Source of the DNA: a virus
Length of the DNA stretch: 58,033 nt
Direction: 5' to 3' (one strand)
Virus record (IMG/VR): IMGVR_UViG_3300032223_002716
Span: 1 to 58,033 of that record
Below the pieces are notes generated by a model that did no database searches, was not told the origin of the DNA, and saw only the letters and a list, made by a program, of their open reading frames with translations. Shown piece by piece: positions 10,357 to 41,299 of the stretch (positions are counted from its first letter, which is position 1; each line of letters opens with the position of its first letter). A program made the translations under genes and the position numbers.

Positions 10357-10387
10357 CAAATCTAGGTATAATATTTTAATTACGCAA
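10357..10387 (-). promoter_or_regulatory. Host-type promoter overlapping the nadV 3' end
   Basis: Minus-strand TTGC, 20-bp spacer, TAGATTTG. The TTG element lies inside the last codons of the nicotinamide phosphoribosyltransferase gene. It would give the small membrane protein and SPFH genes independent expression. Confidence 0.7.
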
Positions 10388-12077
10388 CAGTTTCTTGAAC
10401 TAATTTTGAATAATTATTTATTTTTTCTCTAATCTCAGTCAGAGTCGTAGTTTTAACTAAGTCACCATTTTTGTAAACAGTAGTTAATAAACCATTTTCC
10501 TCTAAATCACGAGAACATTTATCTTTAAGAGCATATGTTAAACTATCTTTAGCGTAAACATATAAGTAACCTCTTGCTGATTTTTTGGTACCATCATCAG
10601 TTACTGGGTCTTTGAAGATATCACGGTCAACACCATTAACAACTACGTGAGTAGCTTTAACTGCACCACCTTGGTTATCTCTTGTTGCATAACCCATAGA
10701 GTAAGAACCGATACCTAATACAACGTTAGTAGATGCGAAACCTTTTGCAGCTAATCTAGTACAAATAGCATCAGCTCTATCTAATGTGATTGAATCACCA
10801 TAGATTGCACCGATATGAGAATCTAATAATTTGTAACCTTGACCATTAGTTGTGCCACCAAATGTATTCCATAACAATTCGATTACACCAACATATTCTG
10901 GTTTACCTTCAACTTCTTCAGCATCGATATATAATTCATCAACATAATAATATTGTTTATCATAACGATTCCAAGTAGTGTCTTCAGTTAATTTGTAATA
11001 TGTACCATTAACATTAACAATACGAGTTGTATCGATAGTGTATTCATCTTCACCATGAACTGTAGACTCATATAATTCATTTTTGAAGTCATGCTTAGCT
11101 TGGTCTAATGAAGTATAATTTAAAGTAACCGAACCACATAAGATGTCAACTGGGTCACCAGAGTCTGGGCGTAATACTAATTTACCATCACGAGAAAGAA
11201 TTTCTTCTTTAAGTTCAGTAACGTATTCAGTACAAACTTTCCATAAGTCAAATGAATCAGATACTACTGATAAGATACCAGTTGGGTATTGTTGCATCAA
11301 TCTTCTGAAAGCACCAATCTCATCTTCTTTACCGTATGCAGTCATAACAGCATGTTCAGAAGCTGGAACACTGAAACCTACATTCTTAGTGTTGTAGTAA
11401 TAGTTTGCAGCTAATAATGCTGGGATTGTATCAGTACCAGAGAATGAAGTTAAGAACCCTAAACCAGAACTAATTGCTGACTCTGGGTGTTGCATTCCTC
11501 TGAATGAGAAATCATGTCCTTGGAAATCAACGAATCCTAAGTTTTCTTTATCAGTTTTTCTAGCATGTGATAATAAAATGTTTTTATAACCATAAGCTAA
11601 TGAAGCTGAGTGAACTGGCTTCCAAATCAAAGAAGAAATCAATGTTTCTAAGAAGTTAGGTAACCAAAAGAAATCTGGATGAGTATTCTTAATTGTGAAT
11701 ACTGGGATTTTCTCATCAACGATAGTTCCTTCGTCTAACGCTTTAATCTCAATAGGTAAATAACCTAAATTGTGTAATGCTTCGAAGTGAGATACATCAT
11801 AATCAGTCCCTAAATATGATGATAAGTATTCTTTAGCTTCACCACAAACTTCAGCTTTAGGTCTAGCAAAGAAATCATTAGCATACATGTCATGGATTGA
11901 CTTAACTGTAAATTGCACACCAGCAACTACAATTTTTTTAGCTTGTTTAGGCATATACTTCACATTTCTTAATGTGTAATTCGAATATACCTCAGTTGTA
12001 CCCTCTGGATACATCGCATGGTGACTAGTTTTATAACCATCTGTCATCAATAGCGGATTTTGTCTGTAACTATTCAT
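10380..12077 (-). CDS. nadV: Nicotinamide phosphoribosyltransferase
   Basis: A 565-residue NAMPT/NadV-type enzyme, which joins nicotinamide to PRPP to give nicotinamide mononucleotide for NAD+ synthesis. Visible family landmarks are NPLLMTDGYKTSHHAMYPEG at the N-terminus, HDFSFRGM, SGTDTIPALLAA, the catalytic-His segment VPASEHAVMTAYG, and VLRPDSGDP in the PRPP/Asp region. Length is somewhat above bacterial NadV (about 460-490), the extra residues lying in the YTIDTTRIVNV to YVDELYIDAEE region. It follows the PRPP-synthetase-like gene by 11 nt, so a substrate-supplying pair is likely. Homologues in phages can also take part in the NARP pathways that rebuild NAD+ from ADP-ribose. Confidence 0.92.
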   Translation of the reverse strand: MNSYRQNPLLMTDGYKTSHHAMYPEGTTEVYSNYTLRNVKYMPKQAKKIVVAGVQFTVKSIHDMYANDFFARPKAEVCGEAKEYLSSYLGTDYDVSHFEALHNLGYLPIEIKALDEGTIVDEKIPVFTIKNTHPDFFWLPNFLETLISSLIWKPVHSASLAYGYKNILLSHARKTDKENLGFVDFQGHDFSFRGMQHPESAISSGLGFLTSFSGTDTIPALLAANYYYNTKNVGFSVPASEHAVMTAYGKEDEIGAFRRLMQQYPTGILSVVSDSFDLWKVCTEYVTELKEEILSRDGKLVLRPDSGDPVDILCGSVTLNYTSLDQAKHDFKNELYESTVHGEDEYTIDTTRIVNVNGTYYKLTEDTTWNRYDKQYYYVDELYIDAEEVEGKPEYVGVIELLWNTFGGTTNGQGYKLLDSHIGAIYGDSITLDRADAICTRLAAKGFASTNVVLGIGSYSMGYATRDNQGGAVKATHVVVNGVDRDIFKDPVTDDGTKKSARGYLYVYAKDSLTYALKDKCSRDLEENGLLTTVYKNGDLVKTTTLTEIREKINNYSKLVQETVA

Positions 12078-16419: not shown

Positions 16420-16446
16420 TTTTTTAAAGATTAAATTAAAAAAAAG

Positions 16447-16520
16447 TGACCTCAGAAGGATTCTAACCTTCACTCTACGCATTAGAAGTGCGTTGCTTTA
16501 TACGATTAAGCTATGAGGCC
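16447..16520 (-). tRNA. tRNA-Arg (UCU)
   Basis: A complete cloverleaf on the minus strand: acceptor GGCCTCA pairing with TGAGGTC, anticodon stem ACGCA/TGCGT with loop CTTCTAA (anticodon TCT), T arm GAAGG-TTAGAAT-CCTTC, and discriminator A. The T loop has A in place of the usual C at the third position. CCA is not encoded. It reads AGA codons, which are heavily used in this AT-rich genome. Confidence 0.88.
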
Positions 16521-16738
16521 AAGTTTCCCCACCTTGAGATTACTGGTGAGTAGTTACATCGGTTTCTTCCTAATTCAAAAAACCTGCTGGGCATCCCCTA
16601 TGAAAAAAGTCAAACTACTTTGGTAACCGTGTTATAGGCCATTATTCCAAAGACTGCAACCTCAGTTGTATGCAGTTACACTAACCTATTGTTAAATAAG
16701 TCTTAGGTCAAAGACTACTGAGTACCCCTTACTCATTG
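16521..16738 (-). other. Structured noncoding spacer between tRNA genes
   Basis: 218 nt without a credible ORF. It contains several strong hairpins: TGAGTA/TACTCA (16719-16735), AGTCTT/AAGACT (16699-16716), CTGCA...TGCAG with an inner CAAC/GTTG (16654-16675), and CAAG/CTTG (16520-16536). The two adjacent 6-bp hairpins at 16699-16735 are perfect. ATAGGTT and GGCCTAT on the minus strand (about 16632-16687) could close a small tRNA-like fold with a 4-bp D-like arm but no T arm. Likely part of a processed tRNA/ncRNA transcript. Confidence 0.4.
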
Positions 16739-16812
16739 CTCTACCCAAGGGACTCGAACCCCCAGCCCTTCGGCACCAGCCGATGTGCAAACCAATTTAC
16801 ACCATAAGCAGA
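16739..16812 (-). tRNA. tRNA-like gene, degenerate (possible tRNA-Thr GGU)
   Basis: The T arm is clear (GGGGG-TTCGAGT-CCCTT), and the D arm reads GTGT...GCAC around AATTGG. The acceptor TCTGCTT/GGGTAGA pairs only with several G-U pairs, and the linker to the D arm has an extra base. The anticodon region ATCGG-CTGGTG-CCGAA gives only a 4-bp stem and a 6-nt loop. A GGU anticodon follows the only sensible U33. It could be a decayed tRNA, a tRNA-like domain, or a tRNA with single-base assembly errors. Confidence 0.45.
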
Positions 16813-16909
16813 GAATCAAGAATTATCATCAGAAATTAGTGGTACCAAATCTCTTTAAGCTATATGATTGATATTCTTGTTAGGGTTGGGTTAATTACTC
16901 CCACCTTTG

Positions 16910-16982
16910 ATAACATGAGTAGATTCGAACTACTGACCCCTACATTAAAATAGTAGTGCTCTACCAACTGAGCTACATGTCA
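16910..16982 (-). tRNA. tRNA-Lys (UUU)
   Basis: A cloverleaf on the minus strand: acceptor TGACATG/CATGTTA, D arm GCTCAGTTGGTAGAGC, anticodon stem CTACT/TGTAG (one T-T mismatch at the loop end) with loop ATTTTAA (anticodon TTT), and T arm AGTAG-TTCGAAT-CTACT. CCA is not encoded. A perfect 22-nt palindrome lies immediately upstream at 16986-17007. Confidence 0.88.
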
Positions 16983-16985
16983 TTC

Positions 16986-17007
16986 CTTCTTCTTTGCAAA
17001 GAAGAAG
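16986..17007. repeat. Perfect 22-nt palindrome upstream of tRNA-Lys
   Basis: CTTCTTCTTTG followed directly by its reverse complement. As RNA it would form a strong hairpin at the junction between the noncoding region and tRNA-Lys. It could be a processing signal or boundary element; it lacks a U tract typical of a terminator. Confidence 0.6.
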
Positions 17008-17487
17008 ATTAATGGTAATAGTCTTTATCAGGAATCTGGGGTTTGCTTTTTACACAAATGCTTCACACACCATTAGAGAGTTGGAAGTAATGCGACTTCT
17101 ATCCTTAGCTGTGTACCCTTGCGACACGTCTCTCCACGTCTGACTATTTACGCTTTTTCCATTAACCAATAATAAATAAGTAACTTGATAAAGAAGGGAC
17201 ATAGCTAAAGTTAAAAATAAAACTAAAACCAAAGACCTCCCTCTACTCAAAGGCAAAATCAAAATCTAAGTCTTGTTTTGCTACCCAATTGTACCTATTA
17301 GGTTAACTTGTGTAGCCATTAGAGACAAGCTCAGTTTTTATAAATTTGTAGAAAGAGCGGATTATGGTAGACTCCTTTCGGAATCGGCTTTTATATTTTA
17401 ATTAGACCGCTTGTGGCAGTCAAATTAGTCATGTATATCAAACATATATAATATATAGAAGTTAATCCTACTCTATCAAGTTTAAAT
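17008..17487 (-). ncRNA. Candidate structured noncoding RNA next to tRNAs
   Basis: About 480 nt with no convincing coding sequence but many compact hairpins on the minus strand: GACTGC-CACAA-GCGGTC (17405-17421) and GATTCC-GAAA-GGAGTC with a GNRA tetraloop (17370-17385). A three-helix, tRNA-like cluster closes with TGGAGAG/CTCTCTA (17074-17136) and contains hairpins at 17111-17127 and 17084-17099. Base composition is less AT-rich than nearby spacers. Large ornate RNAs such as GOLLD and ROOL occur beside phage tRNA clusters, so a member of that kind is a reasonable hypothesis. I cannot fold or search it. Confidence 0.4.
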
Positions 17488-35634: not shown

Positions 35635-38145
35635 TTAAGATAAAATAATTTTATCTTCTTTTTTATCGTATGTGATTTTAATAGTATCTCCTTCTTTAAA
35701 GTTACCATTAAGGATTTCATCAGTTACTGGGTCTTCAATGTATCTTTGAATTGCTCTAGTAAGTGGTCTAGCACCATATGCTTCATCATAACCTTGTTTA
35801 GCAACATAATCAACCGCTGATTTATTAATCTTGATATCAAAACCAATCTCTTTAACTCTAGCTTTTAATTTATCTAATTCGTTATGAATAATCACACTAA
35901 TATCTTCTGGTTTAAGACTGTTGAAGATAATAGTTTCATCAATACGGTTAAGGAACTCTGGTTTGAATTTCTTCTTTAATGCTTTCTCAATAATTGAACG
36001 AGCTTTCTCTTGTTCATTTACAATTGCAGCATCAGTTTCAAATCCAATATTCTTACCAAAACTTGTTAACTCTCTAACACCTACGTTTGAAGTCATAATG
36101 ATGATTGTATTCTTAAAGTTAACTTTACGACCTAAACCATCAGTTAAATGTCCTTCATCTAATACTTGAAGTAATAGGTTAAATACATCGTCATGACCTT
36201 TCTCAATCTCATCTAATAAGATAATTGAATATGGTTTTCTTCTAACTTTCTCAGTTAATTGTCCACCTTCTTCATAACCAACATATCCTGGTGGTGGACC
36301 AATCAATCTAGACACAGAATGTTTCTCCATGAACTCAGACATATCCACTCTAATCAATGCATCCTTATCACCATATACATATTCAGCTAATACTTTAGAT
36401 AAGTGAGTTTTACCAACACCAGTAGGTCCTAAGAATATAAATGATGATGGTTTGTTTTTATCTTTGATACCTAAACGACTACGTTTGATAGCTTTGGATA
36501 CTTTAACGATTGCATCATCTTGACCAATTACTTTACCAAGCAATTCTTTATCCATATTCATTAATCGTTTATTCTCTTGAGTTGAAATCTTATTTACTGG
36601 AATACCAGTCATCATAGATACAACGTCAGAAATTAAATCAACATCAACAATAGTTCTTTTCTCATCAAGATTTTTAACCCATTCTTCTTTAGCCTTAGCT
36701 AAATCAGTATCGATTTTTCTTTCCTCATCTCTTAACTTAGCGGCTTCTTCATATTTTTGTTTTGAAACAACATCCATTTTCTTAGTTTGAATATCAGCTT
36801 TCTTAGCTTCCAATGTTTTTATTTTTTCTGGAATCTCAACTTCAATATTTGTACTAGCGCCAGCTTCATCTAAAACATCGATAGCTTTATCTGGCATAGC
36901 TCTATCAGTGATATATCTATCAGATAATTTAACACACTCCTCAATAGCTTCATCAGTATAAGTAACCTTATGGTGATTTTCATATTTACCTCTAATACTT
37001 TTAAGCATAGTAATAGTTTCCTCTAAACTTGGTTCTTCAACCAATACTTGTTGGAACCGTCTAGTCAATGCACCATCTTTTTCTACGTTCTCTCTAAATT
37101 CGTCAAGTGTTGTAGCACCAATGATTTGTATTTCACCCCTAGCCAATGCTGGTTTGAAAATATTAGATGCATCTAAAGAGCCTGAGGAGTTTCCAGCACC
37201 AACAATGGTATGTAACTCATCAATGAACAAGATAACGTCTTTATTCGCTTTTAATTCATCTAATATTGCTTTCATACGTTCTTCGAATTGACCACGGTAT
37301 TTTGTACCAGCAACAATTGATGCTAAGTCTAAAGAATAGATTCTTTTTTCTAATAACATTCTAGGTGCTTTACCATCAACAATTAATTGAGCTAAACCTT
37401 CAATGATAGCTGTTTTACCAACTCCAGGTTCACCAATCAATACTGGGTTATTCTTTTTTCTTCTTGATAAGATTTGAGATACACGTTTAATCTCTTTCTC
37501 TCTACCAATAATAGGGTCAACATTACCCTCTTCTACAGCTTTAGTAACATCAGCACAGAAATTATCTAATACTGGTGTTTTACTTGCTTTACCACGTTTA
37601 ACTGTTGTTTTCTTTGATTTATCACCAAATTCTTCACCAAAAACGTTTTCATCGTCATCCCCTAACATATTCTTTGGGATATCCTTTTCATTTAGTTTAC
37701 CTTTCATATTAATTATAACTTTTTTAAAATTTTCGTAATTAATCCCAAAGCTAGTCAATATTTGAACAATACGCAACTTTTTATTGGTTAGAATTGATAA
37801 AGTGACATGTTCTAAATCTATATGGTTATCATTCAATAACTCTGATTCATTATCCACTTTATTCATTACCGCTTTCATTTCATCGCTGAATGGTAATCTA
37901 ATTCTTTTACTACCAGTAACACTAGGAGTTAAATTTATTTCTCTGATGTGCTCACTTAATTTATCGTGTAATACATTCACATCCGCACCTAATTTTTTAA
38001 ATGCGTTAACACAGATATTACTATCATCCAATAATATTGCAATCAAAATATGCTCAGGTCTAACAAGGACATCCTCATTACTTTTGGCTTCATTCATCGC
38101 ATTATTTATAATAAGTTTAACCTTAGGTACTATTTCTCTATTCAT
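35635..38145 (-). CDS. clpC: ClpC-like AAA+ unfoldase
   Basis: A full-length 836-residue Hsp100 protein: double Clp_N repeat (RPEHILIAILLDD, DLEHVTLSILTN), first AAA module with GEPGVGKT and a VILFIDELHTIVG Walker B, a UVR-like middle region (KQKYEEAAKLRDEERK), and second AAA module with GPTGVGKT, IILLDEIEK and a C-terminal ARPLTRAIQR sensor-2 helix. An IGF tripeptide in KNIGFETD lies where ClpC/ClpA carry the ClpP-docking loop, so it could use the host ClpP. No phage ClpP is nearby. It closely resembles Bacteroidota ClpC and was probably acquired from a host. Confidence 0.95.
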   Translation of the reverse strand: MNREIVPKVKLIINNAMNEAKSNEDVLVRPEHILIAILLDDSNICVNAFKKLGADVNVLHDKLSEHIREINLTPSVTGSKRIRLPFSDEMKAVMNKVDNESELLNDNHIDLEHVTLSILTNKKLRIVQILTSFGINYENFKKVIINMKGKLNEKDIPKNMLGDDDENVFGEEFGDKSKKTTVKRGKASKTPVLDNFCADVTKAVEEGNVDPIIGREKEIKRVSQILSRRKKNNPVLIGEPGVGKTAIIEGLAQLIVDGKAPRMLLEKRIYSLDLASIVAGTKYRGQFEERMKAILDELKANKDVILFIDELHTIVGAGNSSGSLDASNIFKPALARGEIQIIGATTLDEFRENVEKDGALTRRFQQVLVEEPSLEETITMLKSIRGKYENHHKVTYTDEAIEECVKLSDRYITDRAMPDKAIDVLDEAGASTNIEVEIPEKIKTLEAKKADIQTKKMDVVSKQKYEEAAKLRDEERKIDTDLAKAKEEWVKNLDEKRTIVDVDLISDVVSMMTGIPVNKISTQENKRLMNMDKELLGKVIGQDDAIVKVSKAIKRSRLGIKDKNKPSSFIFLGPTGVGKTHLSKVLAEYVYGDKDALIRVDMSEFMEKHSVSRLIGPPPGYVGYEEGGQLTEKVRRKPYSIILLDEIEKGHDDVFNLLLQVLDEGHLTDGLGRKVNFKNTIIIMTSNVGVRELTSFGKNIGFETDAAIVNEQEKARSIIEKALKKKFKPEFLNRIDETIIFNSLKPEDISVIIHNELDKLKARVKEIGFDIKINKSAVDYVAKQGYDEAYGARPLTRAIQRYIEDPVTDEILNGNFKEGDTIKITYDKKEDKIILS

Positions 38146-39526: not shown

Positions 39527-41299
39527 ATGTTCAACCTAAAGAGAAGTTCAGTAGTTAGTTTTATATTTGCAATTATATTTATGGTGATATTTTTAACCAT
39601 AAAATTGTGCGTATTAACTGGTTACATACCACCATGTGATTTAACTAGATGGATAGAATTTATCTGTTTCTTATTTTTCATACCTTTGTTTGGTGTTATG
39701 GTTAAAGATTACCTAACTAAGAATAAAGAATCTGTTAAATTAAATTATTATGCCAGAAATTTAAACGAAACATTAATTTCTCAAACACATAATCCATTAT
39801 TTTACGAAGGGGACATCACTGAAGGGGCTAAATTATTAACTAAAGAAGTTGTTAATAGTTTAAATATCGATAGATGTTCAATATGGTTGTATAACCATGA
39901 TAAAACTTCAATTATTTGTGAACAATTATATCTTAAGAAAGAGGATGTGTGGGTTCAAGATATTGAGATATTTGAGAAGGATTATAAGGAATATTTTGAC
40001 GCTATTAAAGTAGACCCTACAATTATTGCTGATGATGTATTTACACATCCAGCTACAGCATGTTTTACTGAAACATATGCAAAACCTTTAGGGATTAATT
40101 CTATGCTTGATGTACCAATTGTATATAGAGGTGAAGTTATTGGAGTTATTTGTAATGAAAGTTTTAACACCAAAGTTTGGCATAAGGTTGAAGTTAATTT
40201 TGCTGAGATGTTATCGTCATTATACGCATTCGCTTATTCAGTATGGGAGAATAAATTAACTGAAAATAAATTTAGTGATTTTGAATTATTCGTTGATGAA
40301 ACAGCATTAGTTACTAAAGCAGATAAAAATGGTAAAATTACATACGCTAATCAAAAATTTTTAGATATATGTGGTTGGTCGTTAGACGAAGTTATAGGTG
40401 CTGACCATAATATAGTTAATTCAAATACACACCCTAAAAAGTTTTGGAATAACATGTATAGAACAACAGTTAAGAAAAGAAAAATCTGGCATGAGATTGT
40501 AACTAATAAAAATAAAAAGGGTGAATTATATTATGTAGATACATACATTAAAGCTGAATTTGACCAAGAAACTGATGAATTAGTCGGATTTTTATCTATC
40601 AGACAAGATGTAACTGAATTATATGAATCGCTTAATGAAGTTAGTGAAAAGAATACGTATTTAGAGCACGCTGCGAAGATTCTAAGACACGATATGCATT
40701 CTGGAATAAATACATATATCCCAAGAGGAGTTAGTTCGTTAGAACGAAGATTAAAGCCAGAAGATATTGAACGTTTAAAATTAGAAGCACCTTTAAAAAT
40801 GCTTAAAGAAGGTCTTAAGCATACTCAGAAAGTTTACAAAGGTGTATATGAATTTACAAATCTAGTTAAAAAAGATACTGTAATAACTAAAGAACCATTA
40901 AAACTTAAAAAAATATTAGATAATTATTTAAAATCAACAGCTTATTCAAGTCAAGTTGCTATCGATGTATTACCAGAACTTGAAGTAAATGAATCTTTAT
41001 TCTGTACAGCGGTTGATAACTTAATTAGAAACGGATTAAAATATAATGATTCTGAACATAAATTGGTGGCTATATTTATGGAAGACGAGAATCACATTGC
41101 GATACAAGATAACGGTAGAGGTATGACTCAAGAGGAATTTAATAAATTATCTCAACCATACACTCGAAAAGCAAACCAGAAGGAGAGTGGTTCTGGATTG
41201 GGGTTAAACATATGTATAGCGATACTTAAAGAGCATGGGTTCAAAATTTCTTGTGAGAAAAACGAGGTTGGAACCAAACTATTAATAACAATTAAATAA
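39527..41299 (+). CDS. Membrane sensor histidine kinase (GAF-PAS)
   Basis: A 590-residue kinase. Two transmembrane segments (about 9-31 and 43-60) are followed by a GAF domain (about 90-240), a PAS domain with KITYANQKFLDICGWS (about 255-370), a phosphoacceptor helix KILRHDMHSG (His388) and a HATPase_c domain: N box NLIRNGLKYND, G1 DNGRGM, G2 SGSGLGLNI. All catalytic boxes are intact, so it should autophosphorylate. A single-domain response regulator gene follows after 38 nt. Complete two-component systems are rare in phages; the signal is unknown. It resembles cyanobacterial and Bacteroidota GAF/PAS kinases in architecture. Confidence 0.9.
   Translation: MFNLKRSSVVSFIFAIIFMVIFLTIKLCVLTGYIPPCDLTRWIEFICFLFFIPLFGVMVKDYLTKNKESVKLNYYARNLNETLISQTHNPLFYEGDITEGAKLLTKEVVNSLNIDRCSIWLYNHDKTSIICEQLYLKKEDVWVQDIEIFEKDYKEYFDAIKVDPTIIADDVFTHPATACFTETYAKPLGINSMLDVPIVYRGEVIGVICNESFNTKVWHKVEVNFAEMLSSLYAFAYSVWENKLTENKFSDFELFVDETALVTKADKNGKITYANQKFLDICGWSLDEVIGADHNIVNSNTHPKKFWNNMYRTTVKKRKIWHEIVTNKNKKGELYYVDTYIKAEFDQETDELVGFLSIRQDVTELYESLNEVSEKNTYLEHAAKILRHDMHSGINTYIPRGVSSLERRLKPEDIERLKLEAPLKMLKEGLKHTQKVYKGVYEFTNLVKKDTVITKEPLKLKKILDNYLKSTAYSSQVAIDVLPELEVNESLFCTAVDNLIRNGLKYNDSEHKLVAIFMEDENHIAIQDNGRGMTQEEFNKLSQPYTRKANQKESGSGLGLNICIAILKEHGFKISCEKNEVGTKLLITIK

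Follow-up and report, generated by a model that had tools for sequence, protein, structure and literature searches.

Three predicted structured RNA families beside the tRNA genes of an uncultured myovirus

The window, meaning the whole 58,033-nt stretch of DNA analyzed here, is an IMG/VR record, a 58-kb genome fragment from a myovirus whose portal is of the T4 type. Its nearest cultured portal homologues are those of a Microcystis phage and of Flavobacterium phages, at 37-43% identity, and one Bacteroidia MAG contig carries the start of element C described below; from this contig and the portal homologues, the host can only be guessed. The window also encodes a nicotinamide phosphoribosyltransferase (10380-12077), a ClpC-like AAA+ protein (35635-38145), and a GAF/PAS sensor histidine kinase (39527-41299). 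Positions 16521-17487 contain no credible protein gene, as the original prediction had claimed, and the longest open reading frame there has 70 amino acids. This stretch and its flanks hold three elements (A, B, and C), two tRNA genes, and a tRNA-like cloverleaf (Table 1).

Table 1. Features of the gene-free stretch and its flanks, with examples of spacers and tRNA-like units from other loci
Feature	Position	Strand	Description
P0001	17528..18442	minus	304-aa conserved phage protein, upstream of B
Element B	17167..17379	minus	~210 nt structured RNA (predicted), downstream of P0001
Element A	17007..17167	minus	~155 nt pseudoknotted RNA (predicted)
Palindrome, 22 nt	16986..17007		Next to tRNA-Lys, on the side of A (or of B in relatives lacking A)
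tRNA-Lys (UUU)	16909..16982	minus	ARAGORN; Rfam tRNA 60.8 bits
tRNA-like cloverleaf	16739..16812	minus	Rfam tRNA 26.4 bits; directly abuts element C
Element C	16521..16738	minus	~218 nt pseudoknotted RNA (predicted)
tRNA-Arg (UCU)	16446..16520	minus	ARAGORN; Rfam tRNA 70.3 bits
Conserved inter-tRNA spacers, relatives	L028 4909-5065; L013 4548-4631; L012 1848-1913; L021 3414-3507; L017 1503-1602		
Variable-middle tRNA-like units, examples	L178 603-709; L167 3438; L158 5274 (minus); L198 2641		

The palindrome predicted beside tRNA-Lys is present, and a shorter related hairpin is retained in L048 and L067, both of which are without A. The spacer between tRNA-Lys and the tRNA-like unit (16813-16908, minus strand) contains a long imperfect hairpin; this spacer is conserved in the three nearest relatives only, and it is perhaps a fourth, lineage-specific RNA. 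P0001 has 146 relatives in IMG/VR and matches no Pfam, PHROGs, or PDB fold. Its AlphaFold2 model has a pLDDT of 85, and the sole structural match is an uncharacterized phage homologue.

The hairpins named in the original prediction are all found on the minus strand. Hairpins and the folding energy of a single sequence are no proof of a structured RNA: compared with dinucleotide shuffles, the z-scores of A, C, and B are -0.51, -0.53, and -0.49. Because these energies are unremarkable, comparison with relatives is needed to decide the matter. The GNRA hairpin (GAUUCC-GAAA-GGAGUC, 17370-17385, minus strand) exists as described, but relatives do not conserve it, and its place is in the 5′ flank of B, which is variable.

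Searches against known RNA families return the tRNAs alone. In Rfam 15, A, B, and C are absent, and only tRNA reaches its gathering score in the window and 20 relatives. The Rfam covariance models of GOLLD and ROOL have no match in the window even up to an E-value of 10, and tmRNA has neither an Rfam nor an ARAGORN match nor a conserved tag frame. Sub-threshold hits to Plastid-ycf2 (plus strand, over tRNA-Arg) and to snoRNAs were set aside as chance or as a shadow of the tRNA. A hidden coding pattern, which had been named as a refuting observation, was not found: across six frames no element is open from end to end in most relatives, no frame is conserved, and indels among relatives have lengths not divisible by three. 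In the tail of B, what looked like a V-F-D-F-D reading is broken by one-base indels between relatives and leaves no open frame.

BLAST against relatives splits the region into modules A (17007-17167), B (17168-17370 in this comparison), and C (16521-16740), which match different phages. Pattern scans of IMG/VR recovered A in 67 stretches, C in 61, and B in 17. In a set of 50 large contigs, 19 carry A, 18 carry C, and 30 carry B, and no contig has more than one copy of an element. Possession of the elements was part of the reason for choosing these contigs, so the counts are not prevalences; the genomes are also fragmentary and uncultured. Among 50,697 deposited phage records, there is no P0001, A, B, or C. 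The combinations of A, B, and C differ between phages. The three nearest relatives cleanly lack A, and the unit absent from L048 and L067 runs exactly from one strand of its outer stem P0 to the other.

Covariation was measured on alignments of distinct sequences of A (n = 44), C (n = 46), and B (n = 46, from loci found through P0001). The named structures were scored with their pseudoknots, and the controls were 500 shuffles and partners slid by 1-3 columns. The score of A is 0.307 against 0.153 when shuffled, that of C is 0.302 against 0.124, and that of B is 0.384 against 0.162, with 0 of 500 shuffles reaching the value in each family; sliding the partners lowers the score to at most 0.13. 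The paired fraction is likewise beyond all 500 shuffles in C (88.1% versus 77.0%) and in B (98.7% versus 87.8%). Since shuffling an alignment keeps the relatedness of its sequences, most weight falls on the slid control and on the many independent sequences of P0. Covariation in relatives, as sought by the original prediction, is therefore found for all three elements, far above the controls. At paired positions, G-U cells outnumber A-C cells by 68:5, 130:37, and 100:4 in the three families, which points to RNA of the minus strand. The A and C alignments contain dozens of invariant positions and indicate strong purifying selection. Models R1, R2, and R3 identify the window copies of A (131 bits, E 5.7e-23), C (197 bits, E 4.4e-57), and B (163 bits, E 8.4e-30), with E-values that are rough because the model calibration was short.

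Element A is closed by the outer stem P0 (17159-17167 pairing with 17007-17015), within which lie stem P1 (17142-17148 with 17017-17023), hairpin P2 (17126-17140), and the conserved strand AGAUUCCUGAUAAA at 17024-17037. The P2 loop GGAGAG pairs with CUCUC (17076-17080) as a pseudoknot that crosses an ACACAC/GUGUGU helix. Compensatory changes are found in 6 of the 7 P1 pairs and in a hairpin at alignment positions 61-64/95-98; the GGAGAG/CUCUC and ACACAC/GUGUGU helices hardly vary, and their support is mostly conservation. What had been described as a three-helix tRNA-like cluster at 17074-17136 is present as the core of this pseudoknotted element, but it is not a tRNA.

The strand pairs of P0 are wholly different between phages (AAAAUAUAAUU/AAUUAUAUUUU, AAAAGAUGAU/AUCAUCUUUU, GUAACCGA/UCGGUUAC, and others), and P0 nonetheless stays paired at one position, with a one-base shift in some phages. 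Across 26 distinct strand pairs, a mean of 7.7 of 10 positions pair, compared with 5.7 after shuffling and a maximum of 6.7 in 2000 shuffles. In uncultured phages, A occupies the spacer between two tRNA genes. No gap (0 nt) separates P0 from the upstream tRNA in 26 of 32 measurable cases, and on the other side the distance from P0 to the next tRNA is 4 nt in 25 of 41. Around 60 distinct A copies, every one of the 541 tRNAs located within 1.5 kb shares the strand of A. The identities of the tRNAs flanking A and C vary, and some copies of both elements are found where a contig ends or have no detected tRNA nearby. The window copy of A follows B rather than a tRNA, so tRNA processing alone could not produce its 5′ end there.

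Element C contains hairpins at 16720-16734 and 16699-16716, a loop pseudoknot, several more helices, and a 3′ hairpin at 16527-16550. The two former hairpins were part of the original prediction and are present as covarying helices of C. All five pairs of the loop pseudoknot have compensatory changes. The window copy begins with CAAUGAG at tRNA position 74, which is the place of CCA, and ends flush with tRNA-Arg. Of 49 distinct copies examined for an upstream T-loop, 7 are without a recognizable one, and 39 of the other 42 start at position 74. C follows tRNAs of many identities, in 29 of 62 copies the next tRNA begins 3-6 nt beyond its end, and the 220 tRNAs within 1.5 kb of these 62 copies are all on its strand.

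The unit that directly precedes C folds as a cloverleaf with acceptor, D, and T arms and a folding z-score of -2.45. Its 5-bp "anticodon" stem carries a 4-nt UGGU loop instead of a 7-nt anticodon loop, and it therefore has no usable anticodon. Its Rfam tRNA hit, at 16740-16811, scores 26.4 bits and so falls just below the 29-bit gathering score. The same sequence type is found in the near relatives L003 and L067.

Element B consists of stems P1 (about 17351-17359 with 17236-17243), P2 (CUGAG/CUUAG, 17326-17334 with 17266-17272), and P3 (17307-17317 with 17280-17290), and its covarying stems include an outer CUUCC/GGAAG and GUUAG/CUAAC. Its tail (17168-17237, minus strand) is conserved, unpaired, and U-rich with UUUGAU-like repeats, and neither a covarying helix nor a stable frame was found there in the alignment. 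All 30 large contigs that encode a full P0001 homologue carry B, and none of the 20 others does; one of these 20 has a weak, partial P0001 match only. Because 29 of the 50 contigs were chosen via P0001, the independent test of this association is the other 21, which derive from A and C; one of them has both B and P0001, and the rest have neither. The gene after B varies, with the largest family accounting for 10 of 74. B is thus linked to P0001 instead of to tRNAs, and the changing downstream gene suggests a 3′-UTR-type or independent RNA rather than a leader.

By comparison of relatives, then, the conservation, strand, helices, pseudoknots, positions, single copy, and independence of A, B, and C are established, and on the same basis the elements are three unrelated, strongly covarying RNA families. 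No earlier description of them was found in the open-access literature. The expectation of structured RNA on one strand of a tRNA cluster, probably of new classes, stood up; that of one large RNA did not, as the three families occur independently in different phages, each once per contig.

The locus is probably, though by no means surely, a minus-strand RNA operon with the order P0001 - B - A - tRNA-Lys - tRNA-like unit - C - tRNA-Arg, in which A and C would be trans-acting RNAs released by tRNA enzymes and B a 3′-UTR-type RNA tied to P0001. Because the junctions with tRNAs are flush and constant, we infer that A and C are transcribed together with the tRNAs and cut out by the enzymes that form tRNA ends. 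A 3′ cut of the RNase Z type after the upstream tRNA would set one end of the RNA, and RNase P cleavage at the 5′ end of the next tRNA would set the other. The freed A and C would be small stable RNAs that act in trans during infection. Their targets are a guess, most plausibly the host translation or tRNA-surveillance machinery or a tRNA-sensing defense. The anticodon-less unit before C may serve as a processing handle and not as a decoder, which would explain why a non-decoding tRNA is kept beside C. B would be a separate RNA, possibly bound by P0001.

Four other explanations bear on the same observations. A single large ornate RNA of the GOLLD/ROOL kind, spanning the region and including the tRNAs, would fit the setting in a phage tRNA island (PMC12286853) and the nearly 1 kb of gene-free, helix-rich sequence. 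It is barely credible given that A, B, and C combine differently across phages, that A is cleanly absent from the closest relatives, that A and C are each bounded by tRNAs, and that Rfam returns no match; independent occurrence together with the clean absence of A excludes one continuous RNA, and the idea is largely refuted by this modularity. That A is either present or cleanly absent, with P0 marking its ends, is what would be expected of RNA cassettes, mobile or selfish, that move from one tRNA cluster to another in an intron- or homing-like manner and have no role for the phage. Their patchy distribution beside different tRNAs agrees with this, as does the frequency of homing endonucleases in phage tRNA clusters, such as segB in T4. 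Yet each element is always found once per contig, encloses no ORF, matches no Rfam intron or ribozyme, and, with its dozens of invariant positions, is under strong purifying selection, and mobility of this kind is unlikely.

Cis-acting parts of the transcript, such as terminators, processing signals, or riboswitch-like leaders, would account for B lying shortly after one gene and ending in a U-rich stretch, and for P0 of A ending at tRNA borders. This is rather improbable, because the tRNAs on either side of A and C leave them no ORF to control, B is followed by different genes in different phages, and pseudoknotted elements of 150-220 nt exceed the size that processing signals need. Elements acting as DNA (an origin, packaging site, or recombination site) and decayed tRNA genes are together very improbable. 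The tail of B (17168-17237), which resembles a repeat, does look DNA-like, as does the palindrome of 22 nt, and one tRNA here is without an anticodon loop, but the excess of G-U over A-C at paired positions is expected of RNA and not of DNA, the neighboring tRNAs all run in the same direction, and decayed genes would not show covariation.

Beyond the preferred operon reading, the relatives suggest a more general practice among tRNA arrays, of which the window would be one case. Other spacers of 60-300 nt have a terminal stem of at least 8 bp in 43 of 197 non-redundant cases, compared with 5.7% when the ends are shuffled, and several further inter-tRNA spacers are families conserved between phages, some of them closed by a terminal stem. 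One inter-tRNA spacer (L120 1245-1319) combines CUGACGAG with the closing stem ACCACC/GGUGGU; it is reminiscent of a hammerhead and is not an Rfam match. In addition, 72 distinct units resembling tRNAs are spread over 66 loci, up to six per locus. Their ends are nearly constant (UAGUCAGG...CCUGACUA), they keep the T arm, and they are 91% identical over their 3′ 25 nt. A hypervariable middle of 27-124 nt replaces their anticodon arm, and among 2556 pairs of middles only 24 show relatedness. It is conceivable, if doubtful, that in a broad set of uncultured myoviruses the tRNA array is a general chassis for dozens of different non-coding RNAs that serve as anti-defense decoys or regulators. Each such RNA would take one of three forms: a spacer closed by a stem, a 3′ tail on a tRNA, or a hypervariable insert that replaces the anticodon arm of a tRNA scaffold. 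All would be freed by tRNA-processing enzymes, and their targets would be host defenses that sense or cut tRNA.

Among known systems, the nearest counterparts are the RNAs C and D of T4, of which rnaC (species 1) is 139 nt and rnaD (species 2) is 119 nt. In T4, rnaD begins 1 nt after tRNA-Arg and is followed by rnaC. Both were detected as RNAs late in infection (PMC9697503), and their roles are not known (PMC9697503, PMC3014915). Like A and C, they are small RNAs in a myovirus tRNA cluster, on the same strand, in single copy, and flush with a tRNA. Their sizes differ from those of A, B, and C, and the T4 tRNA-Arg encodes CCA whereas the tRNAs before C do not. Models R1, R2, and R3 find no significant match in the T4 cluster, and no homology to rnaC or rnaD, in sequence or in structure, was detected; A and C are most likely analogous, and not detectably homologous, to the T4 RNAs. 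As a separate observation, T4 rnaC (L235 1409-1547) ends in a tRNA T arm and an acceptor-like 3′ end (CCGGGUUCGAAUCCCGG...), and in this it is similar to the variable-middle tRNA-like units.

GOLLD and ROOL are each one large RNA of about 500-800 nt or more, whereas A, B, and C are independent units of 150-220 nt, and A and C abut tRNAs at a fixed junction. The setting is shared, since A, B, and C also occur in phages near tRNAs, and GOLLD and ROOL are phage RNAs of complex structure and unknown function near tRNA islands (PMC12286853). The cloverleaf before C resembles tRNA (RF00005), and A, B, and C themselves are not tRNAs. Pseudoknots with a tRNA-like part beside C recall tmRNA, but the tRNA-like part before C is complete and separate and may be any of several ordinary tRNAs. 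The three families join T4 RNAs C and D and GOLLD and ROOL as phage tRNA-associated RNAs without an explained function. The sequence diversity of A, B, and C suffices for secondary structures, models, and precise ends, and their tRNA junctions predict how the RNAs would be made, so that the question of why phages keep RNAs in their tRNA clusters becomes one of testable species.
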